This document shows positions 958 to 64,000 of a stretch of DNA of 64,000 bases, in pieces. Position 1 is the first letter of the stretch, and each line of letters opens with the position of its first letter. Source of the stretch: Prorocentrum cordatum. Taxonomy: Eukaryota > Sar > Dinophyceae > Prorocentrales > Prorocentraceae. The stretch covers positions 91,992-155,991 of the forward strand of contig CAUYUJ010014352.1 of the NCBI GenBank assembly GCA_963575745.1, in the 5' to 3' direction. A program made the position numbers and the translations under genes. Under the pieces are notes generated by a model that did not search any database, was not told the origin of the DNA, and worked only from the letters and a program-made list of their open reading frames with translations.

Positions 958-1879
958 TCTGCAGCGCTTGGCGCAGGAGGCGCACTCGTTCGTTGATGTC
1001 AGCGACGCACTCCTTGCATTGTAGCTTCTGGCGACTGTGATGCTTGTGGTTGTCCAGTAGCTGTGGGTTGAGTTTACGGGCGCCGAAGCTGCAGGAGCAC
1101 CTCTGGCACATGTGCGTCGCGAGGTCCGACGGGTCGAATCCCAGAGCACGGCGCTCTTTGCAGACCAAAGTTGTGCCCCGAGAAGACGCGTGATGCCTGC
1201 GTTCAGACTTCGACCAGTACTTCAGCTCATATGCCCTTGTACACGTTCCGCACCGCAGCTTCGTCTGACAGTCCAAGCACACCAAACGGGCCTTCTCCCG
1301 ACGCTTCGCATTCCTCAGCAGGTGCTTGTCGAACGCGAGGCTGCCCAAGTGCTCCAAGCAATCTTCGCACTGGTGCTCGTCGATGTTGCCGGGCGCGAAC
1401 CCTCGCTCTGCGCAGCCCGGGCACGCGAGGTCTGCATCGGAATACCGATGATGCTTCATGATATTCGCCCTCCACACGCCTTCGTCGAAAACATCATTGC
1501 ACGCAGCACACCCGTGGCACTGCGGGGTGAGGCTCCTCTTCCAGTCTTCACGTTCCACACGCCGCTTGCATAGTGAATCGTCTGGCGGGTGTGTCCTTGC
1601 AGCGATTCCATCGGGCATTCTTTGGGGAGCCTCGGCCGCCCGCGCAGCCCGAGGAGGCATTGCGCCGACCTCGCGCGCGCAGTCCATGCATCTCGTCCAC
1701 CTCCCCTGCGACACGTACTTATCGTAGAAGTCGGCGGCTGCTTTCATGCCGAAGTCGCGGGCGTCGAGCATGTACTCCTGCTTCCCTTTGAGGTAGCAGC
1801 AGGCGCACAGGTGCTTCGTCGCCATGGGGTCCATCTTCTCCGCTTCAGCGGCCTCGTCATTCAAGCGTACTCCATTCAT
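958..1879 (-). CDS. Cysteine-rich zinc-finger tail of the Helitron-type helicase (frameshifted)
   Basis: The frame opens at the ATG at 1879, overlaps the end of the helicase exon by 23 nt and is out of frame with it, so a net +1 shift is needed to join them. It holds repeated modules of the form CxxC, about 20-25 residues with F/L-D-x-H-x-L-x-N, then LxCxxC; clear examples are CEDCLEHLGSLAFDKHLLRN with LVCLDC, and CQRCSCSFGARKLNPQ with LQCKEC. These resemble Stc1-like or LIM-like zinc modules and probably bind nucleic acid or protein. The segment YVSQGRWTRCMDC near the start is also typical of tails attached to dinoflagellate helicases, as I recall. The position directly after the helicase makes it the C-terminal part of the same protein, not a separate gene. 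The frameshift means the copy is decayed or the base call is wrong. Confidence 0.65.
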
Positions 1880-3290
1880 GGATCGCCTCGCCCGCTGTGA
1901 TCTGGCCAGACAGTTTCCGCATCAGTCGCTCGGGCCCCACTGGGCTGCCGAGGCCGAACAGAAAGGTCGAGAACGGCTGCATGACGCAGATGCTTGGCAA
2001 TCGCCCCACTCTGGACAAGCATACGCAGGCAGCAATCTGAGCTGTCATGGACGCCCTGCTGGACCAATGCTGCAGGTCCGCGAATGCCGCTTCCAACGCC
2101 GCCCCCTGGATCATGTGAGCGGTGGAAGCGAAGTCGGGGAGAATCCAGAAGCCCGTGCGTCGGGCTTCGATGCCCGTGTGCTCGTTGACTTTCCAGGTCC
2201 TGGATCTCCGTTTCAACGGGTATACGCCCGTCGGCAGCTTCCCTATGCTCCACTGTGCTTCTGGAAAATGGATATAGATAACCAAGGGCAACCTATCCAA
2301 TATGAACTCGCCCTCGATCTCCTGGGGACTGCAATCAGGCGCCAGAGTCCATCCGTAAATCACTCCCTTTCGGTGTCGGTGCGGTTGTCTGCTTCGATCG
2401 ACGTTGTCCGTCAACCGAATGGGCATGCCTTTGGCCAATGGGTAGATGCTCGGAATGTTGCCCGTCTCCTGGTCGCGCCTCTTCAGCCAGGAGAACAACT
2501 TCTCGTCAAATTTCTCCTTCGGCAGATCGCGATCTCCTGGATGCAACGGCCCATCTCGAGCGTAGCGCCACGAGAGCAGAACGTTCTTCTGCTTGGCAAA
2601 CTCCCTCGCGCGCAGGTTCGTCGCGAAGTACCTGGGCACGTTGAAGGTGTACAGAGCTGGTGCGCCGCTGAATGGGTTCATGCGAAGCTCTGGCGCCAAC
2701 GAGTCAGTGTGGGTCAGAACCCTGTGTCTCTTGCCCCGCTCCGCGCGGCACTCCGCGCACTCGCCCTCTGGCGACTTCAGAAGCGCCGCCATGTCGGCGC
2801 ACCCTCCCGGAAAGCGCTCCTTCCAAGTCTTGCGATACGGGCCAAGTACTGGGTCGTCCACCACGTCGTCGTTGCAACCGCACTTACCCGCGCTCGGGGA
2901 CGTCAACGTCGGGAGCCCGTGGCAGTAGCTGTAGTCCTCCATGCTGAGGTTTCCAACTCTGCACTGGCCCAGAAACGAGTTGCACCATTCGTCGTCGCAC
3001 CTCATCAGGTCGGTCAACTGCCAGAAAGATCGCACGCTGTCGACGTCATCTTGCCAGAACAGCTCCAACGCGCGGTGCGCGCACCCTGCGGGCACGTCCA
3101 GCGGGTTGGATGCCAGGAAGGTGCCCGTCACGGGGTGCAGCTGCCAAAAATCAGCGCACATGACCACGTTCACTCCCCCGAAGGCGCGATGCACCCCCCC
3201 CGTCCTCTTCTTGTACGTGCCCCTCACCCGGACAGCGGCACTGACCACTCGTTCCAGGGTGCCCAGCAGCTCCGCGGACATCATGCTCAC
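1857..3290 (-). CDS. Helitron-type PIF1-like helicase, second exon (motifs II to VI)
   Basis: The exon starts after TTTCCAG at 3291 and continues the reading frame of the exon ending at 6100, giving IIIDE + VSMMSAELLGTLE, which is the standard PIF1/Helitron motif II. Downstream follow GGVNVVMCADFWQLHPV (motif III, Q and P in place), NVPRYFATNLRAREFA, a region like motif V around GMPIRLTDN, and motif VI-like STAHMIQG with ACVCLSRV followed by QPFSTFLF. It ends at a TGA at 1857, but the family normally runs on into a cysteine-rich tail, found here in another frame. The product is a 5'-3' superfamily 1B DNA helicase that would unwind DNA during rolling-circle transposition. Being spliced and carrying intact motifs, it was probably functional recently; the frameshift at its end argues against present function. 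Confidence 0.85.
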   Translation of the reverse strand: MSMMSAELLGTLERVVSAAVRVRGTYKKRTGGVHRAFGGVNVVMCADFWQLHPVTGTFLASNPLDVPAGCAHRALELFWQDDVDSVRSFWQLTDLMRCDDEWCNSFLGQCRVGNLSMEDYSYCHGLPTLTSPSAGKCGCNDDVVDDPVLGPYRKTWKERFPGGCADMAALLKSPEGECAECRAERGKRHRVLTHTDSLAPELRMNPFSGAPALYTFNVPRYFATNLRAREFAKQKNVLLSWRYARDGPLHPGDRDLPKEKFDEKLFSWLKRRDQETGNIPSIYPLAKGMPIRLTDNVDRSRQPHRHRKGVIYGWTLAPDCSPQEIEGEFILDRLPLVIYIHFPEAQWSIGKLPTGVYPLKRRSRTWKVNEHTGIEARRTGFWILPDFASTAHMIQGAALEAAFADLQHWSSRASMTAQIAACVCLSRVGRLPSICVMQPFSTFLFGLGSPVGPERLMRKLSGQITAGEAIHEWSTLE

Positions 3291-3500
3291 CTGGAAATGA
3301 TGAATACTGATCATGACCCTTATTCTTTGTACGCTGAACTATGCTCATTCCCTCCACAGTCCTTGCACACATGGTGACACATGGGACGCACGAGAGGATG
3401 ACCAGACTTTGCCATGAGGGCGCCGTTACATGTGACTAGAACCACGCGCGCGCTTCGCGCGCTTAGGTTCTGTCGAGTCACAGACCCAGGAATCGTTGTG

Positions 3501-4410
3501 AGAAGAAATTGGTGACGCGAAGCGTCGTGGGGGCGTCCTTGGACGTCTGGGGTGTCCTGGGGCCTCTTGAAGGGTTTCCTGGGGGCCTCCTGGCGGCCTC
3601 TTGGGGCGGAAGGCTCGAACTTGCGGTTCGTGGTCCCCCTCTGGGCCCCCTCTTGGGCCCGTCTTGGGGCCCTCTTGGGCCATCTTGGGCGCCTCTTGGG
3701 CCGTCTTGGGGCCCTCTTGGGCTGTCCTGGGGCCCTCTTGGAAGCTTCTTGGGCCGTCTTGGGGCGGTCTTGGGCGCCTCTTGGGCCGTCCTGTAACGTC
3801 GGAAAGCCCAAAAGGCGACTTTGTTGAAAATGTACGTTTTACGAAGGGAATGGGTCAATTTTTGCGTCTAGGGGCCCTCTTGGGACGCATGTTGGAGGCT
3901 TCTTGGGGCCTCTTGGGGGCGTCCTTGGACGTCTGGGGTCTCCTGGGGCCTCTTGAGGGGCCTCCTGGGGGCCTCCTGGCGGCCTCTTGGGGCGGAAGGC
4001 TCGAGCTTGCGGTTCGTGGTCCCCCTCTGGGCCCCCTCTTGGGCCCGTCTTGGGGCCCTCTTGGGCCATCTTGGGCGCCTCTTGGGCCGTCTTGGGGCCC
4101 TCTTGGGCTGTCCTGGGGCCCTCTTGGAAGCTTCTTGGGCCGTCTTGGGGCGGTCTTGGGCGCCTCTTGGGCCGTCCTGTAACGTCGGAAAGCCCAAAAG
4201 GCGACTTTGTTGAAAATGTACGTTTTACGAAGGGAATGGGTCAATTTTTGCGTCTAGGGGCCCTCTTGGGACGCATGTTGGAAGCTTCTTGGGGCGTCTT
4301 GGGGGCGTCCTTGGACGTCTGGGGTCTCCTGGGGCCTCTTGAGGGGCCTCCTTGGGCCTCCTGGCGGCCTCTTGGGGCGGAAGGCTCGAGCTTGCGATTC
4401 GTGTTTTTTT
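3501..4410. repeat. 386-bp tandem unit, 2.3 copies, built of CCAAGAGG minisatellite
   Basis: The landmark GGACGTCTGG recurs at 3541, 3927 and 4313, exactly 386 bp apart; a further copy has it at about 5570. Each unit holds about 20 short repeats of consensus GGGCCTCTTGG (plus strand) followed by a unique ~75-bp segment around GTAACGTCGGAAAGCCC. Copies 1 and 2 are nearly identical, so the duplication is recent or homogenised. The long open frames here in all directions come from the repeat period and are not genes. Confidence 0.9.
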
Positions 4411-5784: not shown

Positions 5785-6060
5785 GGGCCCGATCGACTCA
5801 CACCACGTGAAGCCCGCAGGCCCACGCCAGGAGGAGGGGCCCGAACGACTCACACGACCAGGCACTCGAACGACTCGCACAAGGAGGAGGGGCCCGCACA
5901 ACTCACACAAGGACGAGGGCCTCCAGCGACTCACACCACGAGAATCTCGAACGCCTCACACCACGACGAGGGGCCCGAACGACTCACACCAGGCCGAGGA
6001 GCCCCAACGACCCACACACGAGGAGCCCGAACGACTCACACCACGAGGAGGGCAACGAAC
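5785..6060. repeat. GTGAGT-bearing minisatellite at the donor end of the helicase intron
   Basis: About nine imperfect units of 22-30 bp with the core CGAACGACTCACACCA on the plus strand. Read in gene sense each core contains TGTGAGTCGTTCG, that is, a consensus-like 5' splice site GTGAGT. The array begins about 40 bp downstream of the real donor. Confidence 0.85.
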
Positions 6061-6099
6061 GATGCACTCCATTGAGTTTCTCGTTCGGTACCCTCGGGA

Positions 6100-9000
6100 C
6101 CTCGTCGATGATGATCACGCGCAGGGCCCCGCACTTCATGGACTGCTTGTGCCTGTCGCCCGTGGCATTTCCGTCGTCGCTCCGCGCTGGAATGCCGCTC
6201 CAGTGATGCACCGCGTGGCCGTTGATCTGCGCCGCCATGGCATTTTGAAACGCCGAGCAAACGAACTGAACGCCGTGCTCCCAACCGAGACCATCTTCCA
6301 TTAAATACCGCATCCAGCCGATGACGGCACTTTTCCCAGTGCCCGGAAATCCGTGCACTACGTCCAGCAGAGGCTCCCTGGAATTCTGGTTTACGTTGCC
6401 CTGCTGCTTCTCCAGCCACTCAATCTTCAAACGTCGAATGAAGTGCTCCAGAAACTGGCGCTGTTTCTCGTTCGGGATCTTGGAGCTCGCCAGTATGGAC
6501 GCAAACGCTTTGTCTATACTGGTGAAGCCATTTCCTGCAGGGTTGAACGAAGCAGCAGCATCTCGCTTCTCGTCGAAGGGAGCATCGTGCGCCTTCTGGC
6601 TCGTGCCACCTGTGGTTAGAGCTGCTATGTGGTCCTGGTACGCATCCTCGAAGATGTTTCCCGGGCATCCACGGTCGCCAGCCTCGACGCCCGATGGTTC
6701 CGTCTTCCACACCCGCTCCCCGGTGCGATGGCTTTGTTCATACTCGTGAAGTCGGACACTTTTCTTCGCTCGGCTGTTTTCCGAAGCTTTCACCTTCGCT
6801 TTCGCCGAGGCGGTCCACTTCTCCCCGAGGCTGTCTTCTTCTTTAGCCGATTGGAGCAGTTGATGAAATTTCTCACCAGGGAGCTGCAGTGGAGGCATAT
6901 CTTGGTCTTCCTCCGACGCATCTGCCTCGCTCTGATCATCTGCCGCCTTCCCAGACGCCCCCATCGCATTCAACAGGGAACTCTGGATGAGTTTCGCCGC
7001 CGCGTGGCTGACCACGTTCCCTCGCACGTACTCGTCCCAAGCGCTCTTCCAGGATACGCTGTCCAGCGCCGATGTCGTCCCTGTTGTGGATGTTTGCTTT
7101 GTCAGTCTACACGAAGCTCGAGCTTGGGGCGACTGGTGCTGGGCCTCCTGCCAATGCCGCAGTACCGCAGACTCCATGCCCGACATACTCAGGTGAGGCA
7201 CAGACACGTCTCCTCCATAGAGCGTCCAGTGACGGAAAAATAGACTGCAATACTGGGCGTTGTTTGTAGAACTTTGATGTACGCTGGGCATTGGCACGCC
7301 TTCGATCACTACCACGTCCGGCCTCGCTTTCCTCACAAGAACCCAGAAGTGGCAGAAAGCACCTGCGTCCTGCGGAAACAAGAAATACTCGTCGGTCTCG
7401 GATGTCACTGCTATGTAATGCTCTCCAGGCTTCGCGGCGACCTCCCCATCCCGGTACTGCTTGCTCCTGATTAACTGTTGACCTCCTTTTGTCCACGCAG
7501 TTCGCGGTGGCAGGTCGCGGTTCAAGTAGTGCGTCGGAACCAGTAGTGGTTCGCACCTCCACTGCCGCAAGAACTCGTACGCCGACAACAACTTCCAAGG
7601 GTGCTGCGCAGGGCGATATCCGTAGGCGTCGAACTCGTTCACTTTCGATCGGCCCGTCCGCACGTGAGGTTTGCGAGCGGGCGGCACGTGCGTCGTCGCG
7701 CTGCTGTCCTTCATCTGCGACAAATTCTGGGATGTCTCCAACCTGTTCATCCACGCCCGCCCATCCATCGCATGCTCGTTGAAGGTCCGGATGCACTCTG
7801 CCTTCAGAAGGTCGCTCTGGTCCAGATTGCAGCACAGGTTGCAGACTTCCACGGCGCCGCGGCACGTGCTGTTCATCTCGAGTTCCGTTATCAGCCTCCC
7901 GCTGCTTGCTCTGAGCTGCGCCGCTTTCCCCCTGCCCTGTATCTTCGCTCTCAAGGTAAGCAGCTTGTCCACGCATTTCTTCGTCTCCAAAGTGCCTGCG
8001 GGCTGTCGCTTACCAATGTATCCCCCGAAATACCCATGCGTAACTACCTGCATGCGCTGAATTGCTCGAGTGGCTCTCCCCAGACTCTGCTTCTTCATGA
8101 TGCAGCGTTTCTTCTTGCAGCAAGTCTCATGCGTTTGCTCGATGGTCGGCAGTCGGTCATTCGGTTTCACGTCACTGTTGCTTCCTGCAAAAGCGACGCA
8201 CAGGCCCGGCATGCATCCGTTCAGCCACTCCTCATTGCGCAGTCCGCGGGCTTGCCCCAGCCAAGTTCGGACTCCGCTTGTGCGCAGCGTGAACTTCTTG
8301 GCAATGCCCTTGCAAACCAGCAGCGACGCCGTCACCCACTCGGGGGGCACTCTGTTGGTCCACGGCACCTCGTGCTTGCACTCTCTTTTGTTCTTCTTGG
8401 AAGCGCAGGCGTTGGGCACCAAACGCTTCTCCTGCTTGGTCTTCGAATCCATCACCAGTCGATGTATGTGGTGCTGGCGCCGACACATGAAATACTGTAG
8501 AGCGCCGTTGAACTTCTTCTTGAAGGTGGCGTCGTCGCAGTTCAGGCCGAGCTTCTGAGCTTCCCCTGGAGCTCCCTGCGCGGAGAAGCCCACGCCGGCT
8601 CTCGCGTCATCATACAAGAACCGAGGCAACCGGCGTAATTTGAACCCCCCCCATGCTGGCGATCCAGAGCATTCGGACGACTCCGTGTATGTCGGGAAGT
8701 TCTGCTCTCTAGCAAATTGGTCCACGTCGGGATATCTCTCAAAGCAGATTTGCCAGAGGAAATGCTTCGGCTCCGTCGCATTCACGAGACCTTCCTCGAT
8801 TTTCTGGGCGATCTCCTTCAGCGTGGCGAACTGGCGCAGGCGCTGAACGAACATGAAAAAAGGATAATGCAGCCCCCCTGTCGTTTTCTGAGCCTCCACG
8901 GCGCCGAACAAAGCGTCCACGCGCCCTGCAATGCCTCCCATGGCTTCAGCGTTGCTGCCGAGGGCGTCCTGGCACGGCGATCCAGCTTCAGAGCACTGCG

Positions 9001-9970
9001 GACAGCGAGGGCACATGCGCACTCCGAGCATCGTCGCCAAGACCGCGCGGATCTGCGCGAAGAATGCGTTGGAGGCGGCCAAGGGGTCCTCCGCGTCCTC
9101 TGGAGACGGCTCCAGGCTCGGCGAATCGCTCTTTGCCCACTTCTGCCTCCTGCTCTCGCCTGCAACGAAAGGATCGTCCTGGCGGTATCTGCTGAGCCTG
9201 AGCGCTAGATAATTATGCCTCTCTCCTGGGGAAATAGTACAGAATATGCCATTCCCGTAGTTGACGCAAGCCCAGGTCCCCAGGTGCCCAATCTTCGTCC
9301 GAATCTCCTGCGTGCCTGGAATGGCCCGGCATCGAAAGCGGAAGTCAGCCAAGAGCCGCCGTTGCAGGTTTCCGAGGCCGACTGCGAAAATCAGCTTACT
9401 GGTATCATTGTTGATCTTTCGGCGTCCGCCATCGGGTAACGTGTAGTAACCCTTCTCGAGCTTCTGCAGTAAATCAGCGGCGGCTATGGCAGCGTCGGTC
9501 TCCACGCTCTCTGCGCTTTGGCCTTGCAACCGTTCCCCACGCTTGATGCTCAGGCTTGCTCCGAGATTGACGCGCTCGCGAAAATATAGATTCCACAAGG
9601 CCGGCGCAAAGCCCCAAGTACGTCGGAACTGGCCTTCTATCCGTTGCGGCAAGCCGCGCGTGAGATCAAACAACCTCACTGTGGTCGCTGGCCCCATTGC
9701 AAAATGCGCGCCCGGTAGTTTCCGCTGGGCTACGCCCACTGACGGCTCGAGCCACCTGTGCAGAAGCCCACGTGGGGTTGGGAGATCTCTCGTCTCTGGT
9801 CGACGCCAACGAGGTTGGTTCGGGACGTCGTAGCCGCCAACAGCACGCGGCAGCGTGAAAGGAAACGCCATGCCCAGGTACCAGGCGGTATGCTGATTCG
9901 TCAGGTCCGTCCCACTCTGGATGTTGACATCGCCGAACCTGGCAAACACGGACTTGTAATCCCACCAGCC
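6100..9970 (-). CDS. Helitron-type transposase/helicase, large exon (N-terminal Rep-like region to Walker A)
   Basis: An exon of about 1,290 uninterrupted codons between an acceptor CCCAAAG|GGC at 9970 and the donor at 6100. The N-terminal third contains WACVNYGNGIFCTISP followed by GERHNYLALRLSR, matching as I recall the Helitron-like N-terminal/Rep region (F-x-T then H) of dinoflagellate and other protist Helitron proteins. The middle has Cys/His clusters (CRRQHHIHRLVM, KHEVPWTNR) and YIGKRQPAGTLETKKCVDK, a conserved block of the same proteins. The end carries Walker A, VVHGFPGTGKSAVIGW, at about residue 1200 from the frame start at 9949, and IIIDE of motif II. The motifs continue in the exon 3290-1857. 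There is no in-frame ATG near the 5' end, so a further upstream exon is expected above 9970. Role: DNA binding, nicking and unwinding in rolling-circle transposition. The Rep assignment rests on memory, the helicase on clear motifs. Confidence 0.8.
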
Positions 9971-10369
9971 CTTTGGGCGCGAGTGGTTTAGGGAGCTTTC
10001 TCTGTTCTCAACCCCCCAACCCCCCTTCTTCCCCTTCGGGGAGGGGTTTACCCCTCCCCCTACCCCCTCCCCCTGGACCTGGACAGGGAGTCCGGGGTGT
10101 GCTCAGGGGGGTCTTTTTCGACTCCAGGGAGGGCCAAAAAACGACGACCCTCACGAGGATTCTGGCCCCGACGGGGGGAGGGAGGTTGGCCCCTCTGCTC
10201 TTCTTTGAAGCAGAAAACATTGATTTTACTAGGGTGTTGGCCCCATTTTGGTTTTCTGAGGGGGCCGCGCTCATCTTCCCTCATAGCAAAATCATTGATT
10301 TTACGAGGGTTTTGGCCTCATTTTGTCCTTCTCAGGGGGCAGCTCCCATTTGCGCTTCTGAGGAGGTCG
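9971..10369. other. Flank upstream of the helicase exon, with a short duplication
   Basis: GC-rich; contains two similar segments beginning ATTGATTTTAC(T/G)AGGG at about 10219 and 10293. No gene seen. Probably the 3' part of an upstream intron of the helicase gene. Confidence 0.5.
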
Positions 10370-56085: not shown

Positions 56086-56774
56086 GGCGCGGGTGCACTG
56101 GGCCACCTCTGCGTCCGAAAAGGGCCCAGGGAACCACAAGCAAAGCGACGCAAGCTCCAGAACTGCCACTGATCTTCCAGATGTCGTGGCCTGTCCTCCT
56201 CTCCCCCGTCTGCTACCTATGCCCTTCTACAAATCGCAAGAAAATCCGTCATATCTGGCGTCTACATGACCACCACCAACATCATAATCCTACTCCTTAT
56301 GATCGGTGTCAGCATCACCCAGACCTCCGATGCGGTGTGTATGTTCGCGGTGCCGGAGCCGGAGCCCGCGGAGGCGCCAGCGGTGCCGCGCCGGGGCTGT
56401 GAGGGGCTAGCGTTGCGCGCGCGGGCGCCCCCCCTTGGCCGTCCTCCCCTTTTCCCCTCGCCCCTCCCCCCCTCGCGCGCTCTCTGGTCGTTTTTCGTCG
56501 TCGTCCTTCGTTCGTCCGTCGAGGCCAAACAGCCAGCTCAAAGCTGGCGACATTTGATGTTGAAGGCGACGGCGATGACGACGAGAGGCGGCCATTTTTT
56601 TCTCGAAGACGAGCGTCTTTGCTGCCAGCAGTGTTCAGCAGAGCCCGATATCCTCATTACAATCGCTAGAGGTTCGTCCTTTTGACCCCTCTTTTGCTCT
56701 TGATGTGTGATCTCTGAGGGTGGTCACACCGTCAGATCCAAAAAATTGCGCGCGGCGCCCCGAAGCGGAACCCC

Positions 56775-57119
56775 TCACTCCTCGGCCGGAGGCGCGTCGT
56801 CGCTCGAGCGGCAAAATGCAACGCCGCAACAACCGCATCCGATGTCCTTGCCGGGGGGGAATTGCACTTCCGTGTAGCAGCAGAGGAGCTTGCTCGCGAC
56901 CTCGCAGATGCCGCGCTCCTCGGACCAGCAGGGGTCTGGCTCGCAACTGATGCAGCAGCACTCGAGCGCGATAGATCCCGCGCAGCAGCAGACTTTGAAG
57001 GTGCCCATGAGCGGCGGACTCATCGCCTGGCTGGCGGTGCAGGACAGCTCGTAGCAGCAGCATGCGACGCATGGCGACATGTTCTGCTTCAGCTCCTTGA
57101 GCTCATCGGTGGACGTCAT
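56775..57119 (-). CDS. Small cysteine-rich protein of 114 residues, intronless
   Basis: Begins MTSTDELKELKQNMSPCVAC and ends with an acidic tail, SSDDAPPAEE. It has 20 cysteines, mostly in CC, CCC and CxxC-like groups (CVACCCYELSC, KVCCCAG, ECCCISC, KLLCCYTE, GCGCCG). A FPPGKDIGCGCCG segment is distinctive. There is no signal peptide or membrane helix. I do not recognise the family; a metal-binding or disulfide-rich protein of the PLAC8-like kind is possible but not shown. The start chosen is the first ATG downstream of the spliced leader in the open frame, giving a 46-nt leader typical of trans-spliced mRNAs. The ORF is intact, so the retrocopy may be expressed if it landed within a transcribed minus-strand cluster. 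Confidence 0.7.
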   Translation of the reverse strand: MTSTDELKELKQNMSPCVACCCYELSCTASQAMSPPLMGTFKVCCCAGSIALECCCISCEPDPCWSEERGICEVASKLLCCYTEVQFPPGKDIGCGCCGVAFCRSSDDAPPAEE

Positions 57120-57164
57120 CGCGTGCAAAACAATTGACGGGGGCGTGTGGGCCTGGCCTGATGT

Positions 57165-57201
57165 TTTGAACCCAAATGGCTTGAGCCAAAATGACCACGG
57201 A
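57165..57201 (-). other. Spliced-leader sequence plus relict spliced leader
   Basis: Minus strand reads TCCGTGG then TCATTTTGGCTCAAG, 20/22 identical to the dinoflagellate spliced leader (DCCGTAG CCATTTTGGCTCAAG). Directly after it comes CCATTTGGGTTCAAA, 12/15 to the leader without its first seven bases. That truncation is what re-splicing at the AG inside an older leader would leave. Confidence 0.9.
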
Positions 57202-58084
57202 GACGACGAGAGGCGGACATTCACGGAGTGGTCCGAGGTGTCTCAGAAGATGTGGTCGCACTTGACCTTGTGCCTGGTAGCCGAAGCCGACCCACTTAGA
57301 ACGAAATGGGACAGTTTCGGCGATGACGGTAACACTTGATTTTTTTTTTAGGGAGAGGGAAGGCAGAGGGGAGGCGGCGAACCATCGATGAGCAACACAC
57401 ACCTCGTCCCACTCGGTGCAATCTGCGACTGCCGCCGAAGTGAAACATGCGGAGAAAGACTACTGTAAAAGCCAATTCCCGCGTCGCGCGAATGCCTCAA
57501 TGAAATCGCGGCAGACAGTTAAACTCGCGCGTGCGTACTCCGTACCAGTACATCCTGGCGGAACTCGCACTGGTGCCCAACGCAAAAATGACGGTAACAC
57601 TTCAAATACACTCTTGGTCACAAACAACTCGTGTCGATGTGATTCCCGTAGGCGGGCCATCTGGCAGCGGGCGAAGGAGACCACAGGGGGAGCCCACATC
57701 TGGTGCACGAGCGAGCTCTCACACCAGACGCACTGGAGAAGAGATCCCTGACATCCCACGCAGCATGACCATCATCGGGCACCATCGTGGTCGTCCTCGC
57801 CATTCTCGGCACCATCGCCACCATCATCGGCATCGTCAGCAGCAGCATTCTCATCACCATCCTCATCCTCACCCTCCTCATCCGCATCCTCGTCCCCGTC
57901 CTCGCGGGAGGCACTGGCCAGAACGGATCGGGGAGCGCCCCGTGGGAGGCCCGCGCGCGCAGGGGAAGCCTGGCCGCGCTCGACCCCTCGGCGAGGGGGC
58001 GCGCGCGCGCGACGGGGGGAGGCCTGGCCGCGCTCGATCGGAACTGCAGGACGTGCACGAGCGCGACGAACTCCGCCGCAGACA

Positions 58085-61729: not shown

Positions 61730-61859
61730 CTGGCCATCGCTCGGACGTCCATTTCCTGAATGTTTGTCGGTTTCGTGCGCGGCTTTTTCGCCAAATGATC
61801 AAGGATGCTCCTCGATGGCCCTCGCCGAAGGAAAAATGCACACGTCCGAGCGATGCCAA
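61730..61859. mobile_element. MITE family C, copy 2 (130 bp)
   Basis: Ends CTGGCCATCGCTCGGACGT and ACGTCCGAGCGATGCCAAG; interior aligns over its whole length with copy 1 at 16064-16196. No clear duplication. The stop codon of the ABC transporter frame (61799) lies inside it. Confidence 0.85.
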
Positions 61860-64000
61860 GTCTTGGGGGCGCACGGTTCACTTCCGCCACCTTCCGCCGT
61901 CGCCCGCCGTGGGCGGCGGCCTCGTCCTACTCCCGCCGACCTTCCGCCGCGGCAGAGATGAGACAGCTCCATCGATCCTCGACGGCAAGGCAGCTCCTGG
62001 CGCGCCTCACACGTGCACACGTATATATAGAACGTGCATGTTTTGAAAGCACGCTCCGCGCACGCGCAGACATGCGAAGCAGTCAGGCACGGGGAGCGCG
62101 CCCCGCGGCGTGCCAGCGCCGAGCCAGCTGTGCCCTCGTCGGCCGTGTCGGCCACAGCCTGGTCGCCGAGCATGCTGGCAAAATAACCGTCCGCGCGCTG
62201 CTGAAGCTCGTCCGGGCGACCGAACTCTGCAACCTCGCCGCGGGCAATGACCAAGACTTTGTCGTAGTCCAGGATGGTGCTCAGGCGATGTGCGATTGTG
62301 AGCATCGTCCCCTCTCCGACACCGAGCCTCCAGAACTCGATCATGGCCCGCTGGACCATCTGATCTGTTTGATCGTCTACCGAGGATGTGGCTTCGTCCA
62401 ACACAGTGATCCGATTATTCATCACCAGAGCCCTTGCAATGCACAACAATTGTCTCTCGCCATGCGATAGGTTCTCGCCCCGCTCCGTCACGGATCCGTC
62501 CAGGCCTCCAGCGCTGCTCAAAATGTCGCCCAAACCGACGCGCTGCATCGAGTCTAGCAGGACATCGTCCTGGACAACTCTGCGGAATGGGTCTAGATTC
62601 GAACGGAACGAGCCGCTGAACACAATGGGGTCCTGGGGGATGATGGACATCCTGGATCGCAGAACTGTGAGCCCCATGGTTCGCGTGTCCAGGCCGTCGA
62701 TACGCACACTTCCGCAGCATGGTTCCACGATCCGAAACAATGCCTGTAGCAAACTCGACTTGCCTGACCCTGTGCGTCCACATATCCCAACACGCTCGCC
62801 GCGAGCGGCCGAGAACGTTACATCTTTGAGGACTAGGTCGCCGCCACGGTAGCGCAAGGACACACCTTCGAAGACAATGCCACCCCTAGGCCAGCAAGGC
62901 GGAAGGGCTTCGTCGCCTGGCAAAACCAGCGGCGCCTCTTGGGCGACATCCTCAAAACTTTGCACACGTTCGCAAGCGGTCAGCTGCTGACTAATCATGA
63001 CGCTCAACTGTGCTGTTCTTTGGAGCATGGCCGTCATCTGAATTGCATACACGAGTGCCAGTCCGACAAACTCTTTGCTCACGCTCTTGTGCGCTACCAC
63101 TGCAGAGAAGCAGAAGAGTCCGATCATTCCCACAGTCAGAGACTCCAGTCGAGCCATCACCCAGCCCTCGGACATGACCACGGCGTGGTACGCTCGCAGA
63201 TTTCGACCCATTCGGACCGCATGGCTCGCAGTGAAGCGGCGAGTCGCGCCCCATGCCCGGATCGTATCCAGACCCGTGAGCGCCTCGGAGAATGAGCTGT
63301 ATATGGGCGACCGGGTGGAGCCATCCATTCTCTTGAAGTCACTGGACGCAGGCTGAAATCTGGTCGAAACAAAGAGAAACAACAAAACCATGACAACAAT
63401 GGCGATCGCGAACCACGGGATAGCCAGAGTTGTAAGAACGAAGATGTTGATCAGTTGAGCCCCGTTGCTCAGGAAGTGTGATGCGAACTCTGGCAGTGTC
63501 GTGTCCACGGTCTCCAGATCCTTCGCAAACTTGTTAGCGATCTCGCCGCTTGTCGTAATGTCGAAAAAAGTTGGCACTGGTGCCCGCAGGACATGCCAAA
63601 GCACCCTTCGGTGCAGCGAGCTGGAGGCCAACATGCTAGTGCCAGATATTGCCACGACGCGCACGGCCAACAGCAGGAAAAGGACGACCAGCGCGCCGAA
63701 AGCGAGGTCCGGCGATGCCTCCCCAGCGACCCACTTCGTCAGCGTCACGTCGGCCACCACGCGACAGCCCTGGCCACTCAGGATAATGAAGACGATAGTA
63801 AAGCCAACCACGACGCCACCAAGCGCGCCATACCCGATGGCGCCGGCAAGGAATCTGGTCAGCACACGCAGGGGTCCACCTCCACGGCGCTCGCTCGAGT
63901 CGCTCTGCATGAGCGTGGCAGTGTTCTTCGTGGCATGCGACGGGACCGACTTCGAAACATCTTGATTTGCTTGGGCGACGACTGCTGTGACGTCAGGCTG
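61799..64000 (-). CDS. ABCC/MRP-type ABC transporter, C-terminal half (partial, open at the right edge)
   Basis: The frame is open from the window edge to 61799; numbering here is from the Met at 63910. The ~30 residues before it are the usual linker between the first nucleotide-binding domain and the second membrane domain. The second membrane domain covers about 20-310 with six hydrophobic stretches, including FFDITTSGEIANKFAKDLE and DTIRAWGATRRF, typical of ABCC proteins. The second ATPase domain has the A-loop Tyr354, Walker A GRTGSGKS (378-385), Q-loop IIPQDP, signature LSHGERQ (481-487; ABCC proteins usually have LSxGQRQ), Walker B ITVLDE (501-506) and H-loop His541. ABCC proteins normally end near GYFASMLG (580). 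The remaining 123 residues have no counterpart, and about the last 63 are encoded by repeat M and MITE C, so the true 3' end or a splice donor probably lies near 62100. Likely an organic-anion or conjugate exporter in a vacuolar or plasma membrane. Confidence 0.93.
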   Translation of the reverse strand, partial: QPDVTAVVAQANQDVSKSVPSHATKNTATLMQSDSSERRGGGPLRVLTRFLAGAIGYGALGGVVVGFTIVFIILSGQGCRVVADVTLTKWVAGEASPDLAFGALVVLFLLLAVRVVAISGTSMLASSSLHRRVLWHVLRAPVPTFFDITTSGEIANKFAKDLETVDTTLPEFASHFLSNGAQLINIFVLTTLAIPWFAIAIVVMVLLFLFVSTRFQPASSDFKRMDGSTRSPIYSSFSEALTGLDTIRAWGATRRFTASHAVRMGRNLRAYHAVVMSEGWVMARLESLTVGMIGLFCFSAVVAHKSVSKEFVGLALVYAIQMTAMLQRTAQLSVMISQQLTACERVQSFEDVAQEAPLVLPGDEALPPCWPRGGIVFEGVSLRYRGGDLVLKDVTFSAARGERVGICGRTGSGKSSLLQALFRIVEPCCGSVRIDGLDTRTMGLTVLRSRMSIIPQDPIVFSGSFRSNLDPFRRVVQDDVLLDSMQRVGLGDILSSAGGLDGSVTERGENLSHGERQLLCIARALVMNNRITVLDEATSSVDDQTDQMVQRAMIEFWRLGVGEGTMLTIAHRLSTILDYDKVLVIARGEVAEFGRPDELQQRADGYFASMLGDQAVADTADEGTAGSALARRGARSPCLTASHVCACAERAFKTCTFYIYVCTCEARQELPCRRGSMELSHLCRGGRSAGVGRGRRPRRATAEGGGSEPCAPKTWHRSDVCIFPSARAIEEHP
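61866..61990. repeat. Dispersed repeat M, copy 2
   Basis: Matches 14270-14395; encodes part of the odd C-terminal extension of the ABC transporter frame. Confidence 0.8.

Follow-up and report, generated by a model that had tools for sequence, protein, structure and literature searches.

How a gene with two consecutive spliced leaders at its 5′ end came to lie in the genome of Prorocentrum cordatum, and which kind of machinery placed it there, is the question raised by one locus in the 64,000-nucleotide stretch analyzed here (the window; contig CAUYUJ010014352.1, ~60% GC). According to passages of Song 2018 (PMC6050394), leader-tagged retrogenes account for at least 20% of the genes in some dinoflagellates, and the type of retro-element behind their recycling is described as unknown, LTR elements being considered more likely. 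Passages of Haro 2025 (PMC12014239) name both LTR and non-LTR elements, do not rule out retroviruses, and leave the machinery open, and those of Jaeckisch 2011 (PMC3229502) describe the recycling cycle and the truncation of relict leaders after nucleotide 7. Target-site duplications (TSDs) of retrogenes are absent from the available passages of seven papers (PMC11453091, PMC7245778, PMC7789003, PMC10235124, PMC3229502, PMC12014239, and PMC6050394), one of which, PMC7789003, mentions TSDs of MITEs. No title or abstract among those listed in searches dealt with leader-capped LINEs or with TSDs in dinoflagellate retrogenes, and an earlier description is possible.

The initial annotation had read the minus strand of the locus as a TSD, a spliced leader (DinoSL), a relict leader, an open reading frame (ORF), an A tract, and a second TSD, with the leader starting at the first base inside the repeat and the A tract abutting the other repeat copy. 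All of these parts were found in place, base for base, between window positions 56577 and 57221, and both junctions are as described:

57221-57202, minus strand: 5′ TSD, AATGTCCGCCTCTCGTCGTC; its repeat score is 17 for the own/own pair, while the 90 cross pairs reach 7 at most
57201-57180, minus strand: full-length DinoSL copy, TCCGTGGTCATTTTGGCTCAAG, 20/22, first base directly after the 5′ repeat
57179-57165, minus strand: relict DinoSL, CCATTTGGGTTCAAA, the 15-nt form cut after nucleotide 7, 12/15, directly behind the leader and ascribed to an earlier round
57164-57120, minus strand: 5′ untranslated region (UTR), whose junction with the relict falls no more than one base from the AAAG|CATC of paralog L005
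57119-56775, minus strand: intact intronless ORF of 114 codons, cysteine-rich family (ATG at 57119, stop at 56777-56775)
56774-56602, minus strand: 3′ UTR ending in TTCGAG, the same end site as in several paralogs
56601-56595, minus strand: A7, poly(A) remnant, whose last two A also open the 3′ repeat
56596-56577, minus strand: 3′ TSD, AATGGCCGCCTCTCGTCGTC, 19/20 against the 5′ repeat

Mismatches number 2/22 in the leader, 3/15 in the relict, and 1/20 between the direct repeats, and the internal TAG acceptor of the leader copy has become TGG. The locus shares with the mRNA recycling known from dinoflagellates (Slamovits and Keeling 2008; PMC3229502; PMC6050394; PMC12014239), as far as the available passages describe it, the genomic DinoSL, the relict cut after nucleotide 7, the intronless coding sequence, and a leader tandem that counts the rounds. 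Retrogenes in those passages are known by their leader, whereas here a TSD, a full leader, and an A tract occur together and recur in paralogs. Copies that keep all three make the mechanism of integration readable.

To delimit the copied unit, the assembly (4,128,499,153 bases in 21,875 contigs) was searched with window positions 56560-57240 as the query, in which the repeats lie at 20-39 and 645-664, the relict at 62-76, and A7 at 640-646. At least 38 genomic matches were obtained, a lower bound given that the best candidates were scored, comprising the window itself, 19 paralogous loci, a second piece of one paralog (L022), and 17 short leader-type matches. The main match of all 19 listed paralogs lies inside query 74-646, with starts at 74-153 and ends at 362-646; none passes the A tract, and the longest matches start at 74-83, at the relict end or just past it. 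The prediction that paralog similarity would be limited to 56602 to about 57164 was thus borne out, and similarity running past both repeats, which the same annotation had named as evidence against TSDs, was looked for and found in none of these 19. Flanks of different paralogs share only short or repeat-like matches, apart from the overlapping neighbors L008/L018 and L010/L015, which are tandem members of the family. The longest flank matches (L008-L010 upstream, 422 bp at 80%; L015-L018 downstream, 354 bp at 90%) occur at these tandem copies, and none of the longer ones involves the window locus.

A leader-like match of at least 16/21 is present in 16/19 loci, some of these matches belonging to tandem neighbors and the weak ones carrying no chance estimate. 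A leader of at least 18/21 stands beside the gene in eight (L007, L009, L012, L013, L014, L019, L020, and L021), and the match is exact in 4 of the 19 loci. Compared at finer resolution, four paralogs (L007, L013, L019, and L021) have leaders that align separately with that of the window (query 39-83). The positions at which the leader joins the UTR differ among paralogs, and several copies have a common 3′ end (TTCGAG, TGCGAG, or TGTGAG), after which the sequence is A-rich. The 114-codon ORF is kept in 12/18 paralogs (L005-L022) and broken or altered in six, and dN/dS between the window copy and the 12 intact paralogs ranges from 0.03 to 0.49, values that do not separate selection before the insertion from selection after it. 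The encoded protein had no match in a Pfam scan and no relative among solved structures, and its AlphaFold model has a mean pLDDT of 39.9; it has 23 protein homologs, of which a single one carries an organism name, Alexandrium catenella. Nine stretches of viral contigs matched a pattern, none of them encoding a relative. An intact intron-bearing parent was sought among the paralogs and not found; the match of L022 is interrupted by 213 bp, but its ORF is broken. These 213 bp (L022, 1763-1975) hold an inverted repeat, ACATACTAAC / GTTAGTATGT, and are introner-like.

At the position where the relict meets the UTR in the window copy (relict|ACATCAGGCC), paralog L005 reads CTAAAG|CATCTGGCC, and the relict therefore ends at most one base from a possible trans-splice acceptor. 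This position, together with the full leader that abuts the repeat, supports the earlier proposal of two passes through mRNA, and the retrogene most likely did go through mRNA twice. In the first round, pre-mRNA of a cysteine-rich gene would have been trans-spliced with DinoSL, reverse transcribed, and inserted. Transcripts of the resulting copy would then have undergone trans-splicing once more, this time at the AG within the leader that the copy itself encodes, which would leave the 15-nt relict. In the second round, a LINE-type enzyme would have copied the new full-length polyadenylated mRNA into the site where it now lies. For this last step, one strand would be nicked, the poly(A) would prime at the nick, and the cDNA would be extended to the first leader base, with a staggered second cut giving the 20-bp duplication. 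The order of the rounds, the target-primed priming, and the enzyme are inferred. If the retrogene is expressed at present, a further new leader could be joined to its transcript at CAAG|CCATTTGGG or at an AG upstream. Common descent of the relict with P0004 was also considered and dropped, as the UTR continues differently there and the family UTRs show other acceptors. The N-terminal extension of P0004 can encode a leader with the same T>G change, a match reached by 0/500 shuffles, and its UTR alignment is not convincing, being reached by 24/200 shuffles with the relict and 7/200 without it.

The same record is not confined to the window locus, as several paralogs show it. For the ten members with a leader and a recognized 3′ end, 33 nt at the leader were compared with the 3′ flank; members with a leader or leader remnant L008, L010, L015, L018, L019, L020, and L022, together with L023 and the leaderless L006 and L011, were left out. 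Own pairs reached a score of at least 8 in 6/10 (the window, L009, L012, L013, L017, and L021), at least 10 in 5/10, and at least 12 in 3/10, against 0/90 cross pairs at each of these scores (maximum, 7). The sister TSDs measure 18/18 in L013, 19/21 in L021, 11/11 in L012 and L017, and 13/15 in L009, and A-rich tracts precede the 3′ copy in all five. By the same test no TSD was found at L005, L007, L016, or L014, the 3′ end of L014 being N in the assembly. TSDs start with AATG, AGAG, ATCA, GCAG, CTCT, CAAA, AACA, or GTCC, and neither a common site nor an L1-like consensus is apparent among these starts.

The comparison of own and cross pairs is the better control for coincidence. In 20 dinucleotide shuffles of the window, no 16- or 18-mer pair followed an A-run, a weak null because each shuffle holds 10.2 A-runs versus 51 in the window. 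A 19/20 partner at a distance of 300 to 1,500 bp exists for about 2.7% of window positions, many of them within longer runs of repeats; the 20-bp pair of the retrogene is isolated and part of no such run. The leader with at most three mismatches has a single match in the window and none in 100 shuffles. Among the 17 short leader-type matches elsewhere, 7 extend into the 5′ repeat by 16 to 17 bases, and the gene is part of none of them. They do so because CT-rich sequence is common before leaders in this genome, and the upstream flanks of these seven are mostly CT-rich.

Two family members appear to record a single copying step. At L008, a 13-bp repeat (TTTGTGACTCCCC / TTTGTGACTACCC) is present and the outer leader is reduced to TCAAG, followed by TCATTTCGGCTCAAG. 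In L007, which lies on a different contig, the same TCATTTCGGCTCAAG comes after a complete leader, and the L008 3′ repeat is included, together with the flank downstream of it, as transduced sequence. The 3′ ends read GATTGAG|AAAAAAACATATC (A7) in L007 versus GATTGAG|AAAAGGCG in L008, and the apparent daughter thus has a full leader and an A tract that are missing from the likely source as it is now. Across an alignment of 783 columns, in which a gap of ~30 bases in L008 is counted, the two are 94% identical. To judge from these sequences, L007 was likeliest copied from an L008-like locus, the leader and A tract being added at the RNA level. L008 may instead have lost its outer leader later. 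With ~30 bases of its 3′ part absent from L008, L007 is no exact daughter of the present L008, and no TSD is detectable at L007 itself.

To place the locus among its kind, tandems of leader and relict were counted throughout the assembly; 3,890 have at most three mismatches, versus 0 in the reversed control. The first 30 exact tandems in contig order served as an unchosen sample, of which one (L065, TSD of 18/18 after A11) has a TSD with an A tract within 1.5 kb. Five other sample loci followed to 4.3 kb showed no A-adjacent TSD, and L062 has a 40-bp minisatellite-like repeat. Perfect TSDs were present in 2/17 leader-type loci, whose flanks had been partly selected by similarity to the window (L030, 18/18 after A8; L032, 19/19 after A7); other repeats at these loci were of low complexity or did not adjoin an A-run. 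The window locus is unusual in its preservation, not in kind.

Another signature is frequent in the unchosen sample. A trinucleotide microsatellite (at least 19/24 bases) directly precedes the leader in 20/30 loci (CCT in 14, AGG in 4, and ATC in 2), versus a background of 5.1% of sampled window positions and 9.7% at 300 to 1,450 bp upstream of the same loci. ORFs of 47 loci (L044-L073 and L024-L040) gave two main protein clusters of nine and six loci, in which weak links may be compositional because some of the clustered proteins are rich in R and S. Cluster loci were microsatellite flanked in 14/15 cases versus 12/32 others (Fisher p 0.0004); in the unselected 30 only, a hand count gave 12/13 versus 8/17. 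One member of each cluster was extended, the ORF1-like protein being the only one considered in the other 13. L039/L074 has a leader and three relicts, with Exo_endo_phos (7e-8) and RVT_1 (1.6e-8) matches that are both above the curated cutoff, and L046/L075 has a leader and one relict, with matches (1e-4 and 9e-6, respectively) that are both below it. CCT-rich sequence follows the 3′ end of both, judged by eye at L039, which the microsatellite scan did not flag, and no A tract was seen at either end. Six CCT-flanked loci with ~2.4 kb of downstream sequence were inspected, and two (L025 and L036) have a CCT tract downstream.

From their sequences, L039 and L046 look like LINEs whose own RNA is trans-spliced. 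Waldo, Kibi, and Koshi of the R1 clade are microsatellite-targeted non-LTR retrotransposons. As in such elements (PMC4640811), L046 and L039 have endonuclease and reverse transcriptase matches and CCT-rich sequence on both sides; they differ in starting with a host spliced leader and relicts, and the window retrogene itself is no element of this kind. A polypyrimidine tract that favors trans-splicing is another possible reason for the microsatellite flanks, but the AGG and ATC flanks (6/30) and the CCT-rich sequence after the 3′ ends of L046 and L039 speak against its being the only one. On balance, and by a modest preference, we take many tandem-DinoSL-relict loci of this genome to be, rather than retrogenes, autonomous LINEs whose RNA would be trans-spliced in each cycle, whose full copies would start with the leader and generation-counting relicts, and which would insert into trinucleotide microsatellites, mostly CCT; cellular mRNAs such as that of the window gene would serve as bystander substrates for this machinery or for a sister one that uses poly(A). 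If so, counts of relict-leader retrogenes would be inflated by LINEs, and the leader would help dinoflagellate LINEs to keep a complete 5′ end. Such leader-capped LINEs, which may be new, are a candidate enzyme class as well as a warning on retrogene counts. In another assembly, positions 1-52 of a metagenome-assembled genome (MAG) contig (L002) show the same microsatellite-leader junction, a TCA-repeat tract followed by an exact DinoSL.

What machinery made the last insertion at the window locus can be weighed on these data. LINE-1 processed pseudogenes and retrogenes are full-length mRNA copies with 3′ poly(A) and TSDs of ~7 to 20 bp, and LTR integrases leave duplications of ~4 to 6 bp plus LTR or template-switch sequence. 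Here the TSD is 20 bp (19/20), flanks the copy exactly, exceeds LTR-type duplications, and is abutted at its 3′ copy by A7, and TSDs recur in 6/10 family members, so that the LINE-type mechanism named in the initial annotation, mRNA retroposition by a target-primed route, is well supported. The window locus is very probably a DinoSL retrogene that went through two mRNA rounds and was last inserted by a LINE-type enzyme. The likeness to LINE-1 retrocopies extends to the full-length mRNA copy, the 3′ poly(A), and the TSD, with L008 as one apparently 5′-truncated case in the family; the differences are that TSD starts show no apparent TT/AAAA consensus and that the 5′ end is a trans-spliced leader. 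That LTR-retrotransposon machinery (Ty1/copia) made and inserted the cDNA, for which passages of Song 2018 (PMC6050394) argue from Ty1/copia expression, is very improbable at this locus: the duplications are 20 bp here and 11 to 21 bp with A-rich 3′ ends in the sisters, and the stretch from leader to A tract is uninterrupted, with neither a short TSD nor an LTR or chimeric junction.

The agent might instead be the leader-capped LINE class of L046 and L039 acting in trans on cellular mRNA, in keeping with their leader and relict at the first bases and their Exo_endo_phos and reverse transcriptase matches, those of L046 lying below the curated cutoffs. We consider this possible but rather unlikely, since those two elements sit in CCT-rich sequence and end without an A tract, whereas the retrogene and its sisters are mostly elsewhere and have A-rich ends. 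Capture of a cDNA at a double-strand break, without target-primed synthesis, agrees with the existence of copies that have no TSD (L005, L007, and L016) and could explain only these; it does not yield 20-bp repeats abutting a leader and an A tract and is quite improbable for the window locus. Least probable of all is a DNA-level duplication of an old retrocopy beside coincidental direct repeats. Tandem members exist in the family (L010/L015 and L008/L018), but the main paralog matches stop at the relict and the A tract, cross pairs score 0/90, and longer flank matches are restricted to tandem members; nothing here supports duplication at the window locus.

Just upstream of the retrogene, a second, leaderless insertion was recognized:

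57604-57588, minus strand: 5′ TSD of the second insertion, TGAAGTGTTACCGTCAT
57587-57340, minus strand: 248-bp insert, presumably 5′ truncated, ending in A10 (57349-57340)
57339-57323, minus strand: 3′ TSD of the second insertion, TCAAGTGTTACCGTCAT, 16/17

Judged by its layout, it fits a 5′-truncated LINE-type event. In the window itself, a Pfam scan of 20 of the 190 stop-to-stop ORFs (at least 150 aa) detected no reverse transcriptase. Another repeat/A-run pair (5275/4403) was set aside as a 50-bp repeat in a repeated region, as were further repeat/A-run matches of 14 to 16 bp. AAAATAGTCTGGGGAC or a one-change copy of it occurs three times at A-runs (46142, 48624, and 54052, minus strand) and is maybe the end of a dispersed repeat. 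Long ORFs at 1860-3338 and 5987-10102 (both minus strand) have PIF1-like helicase and weak AAA_30 matches and possibly belong to one large mobile element, and an open frame that runs off the window (61804-64000, minus strand) has the membrane and ATPase domains of an ABC transporter.

DinoSL was also searched for in genome contigs, where two MAG contigs matched that are uninformative for TSDs. In an IMG/VR contig (L001, 1936-2766, minus strand), an ORF of 49% GC lies shortly behind an exact DinoSL between flanks of 16 to 19% GC, with a second DinoSL 147 bp upstream; a virus-like genome may have received a copy of a host leader-mRNA, or the contig may be a chimera. A Dehalococcoidia MAG contig (L003) has, next to sequence that is eukaryotic rDNA-like by eye, a DinoSL at 4334-4354 (minus strand) followed by GTACGC as in an SL RNA gene, and is likely contamination of the MAG.
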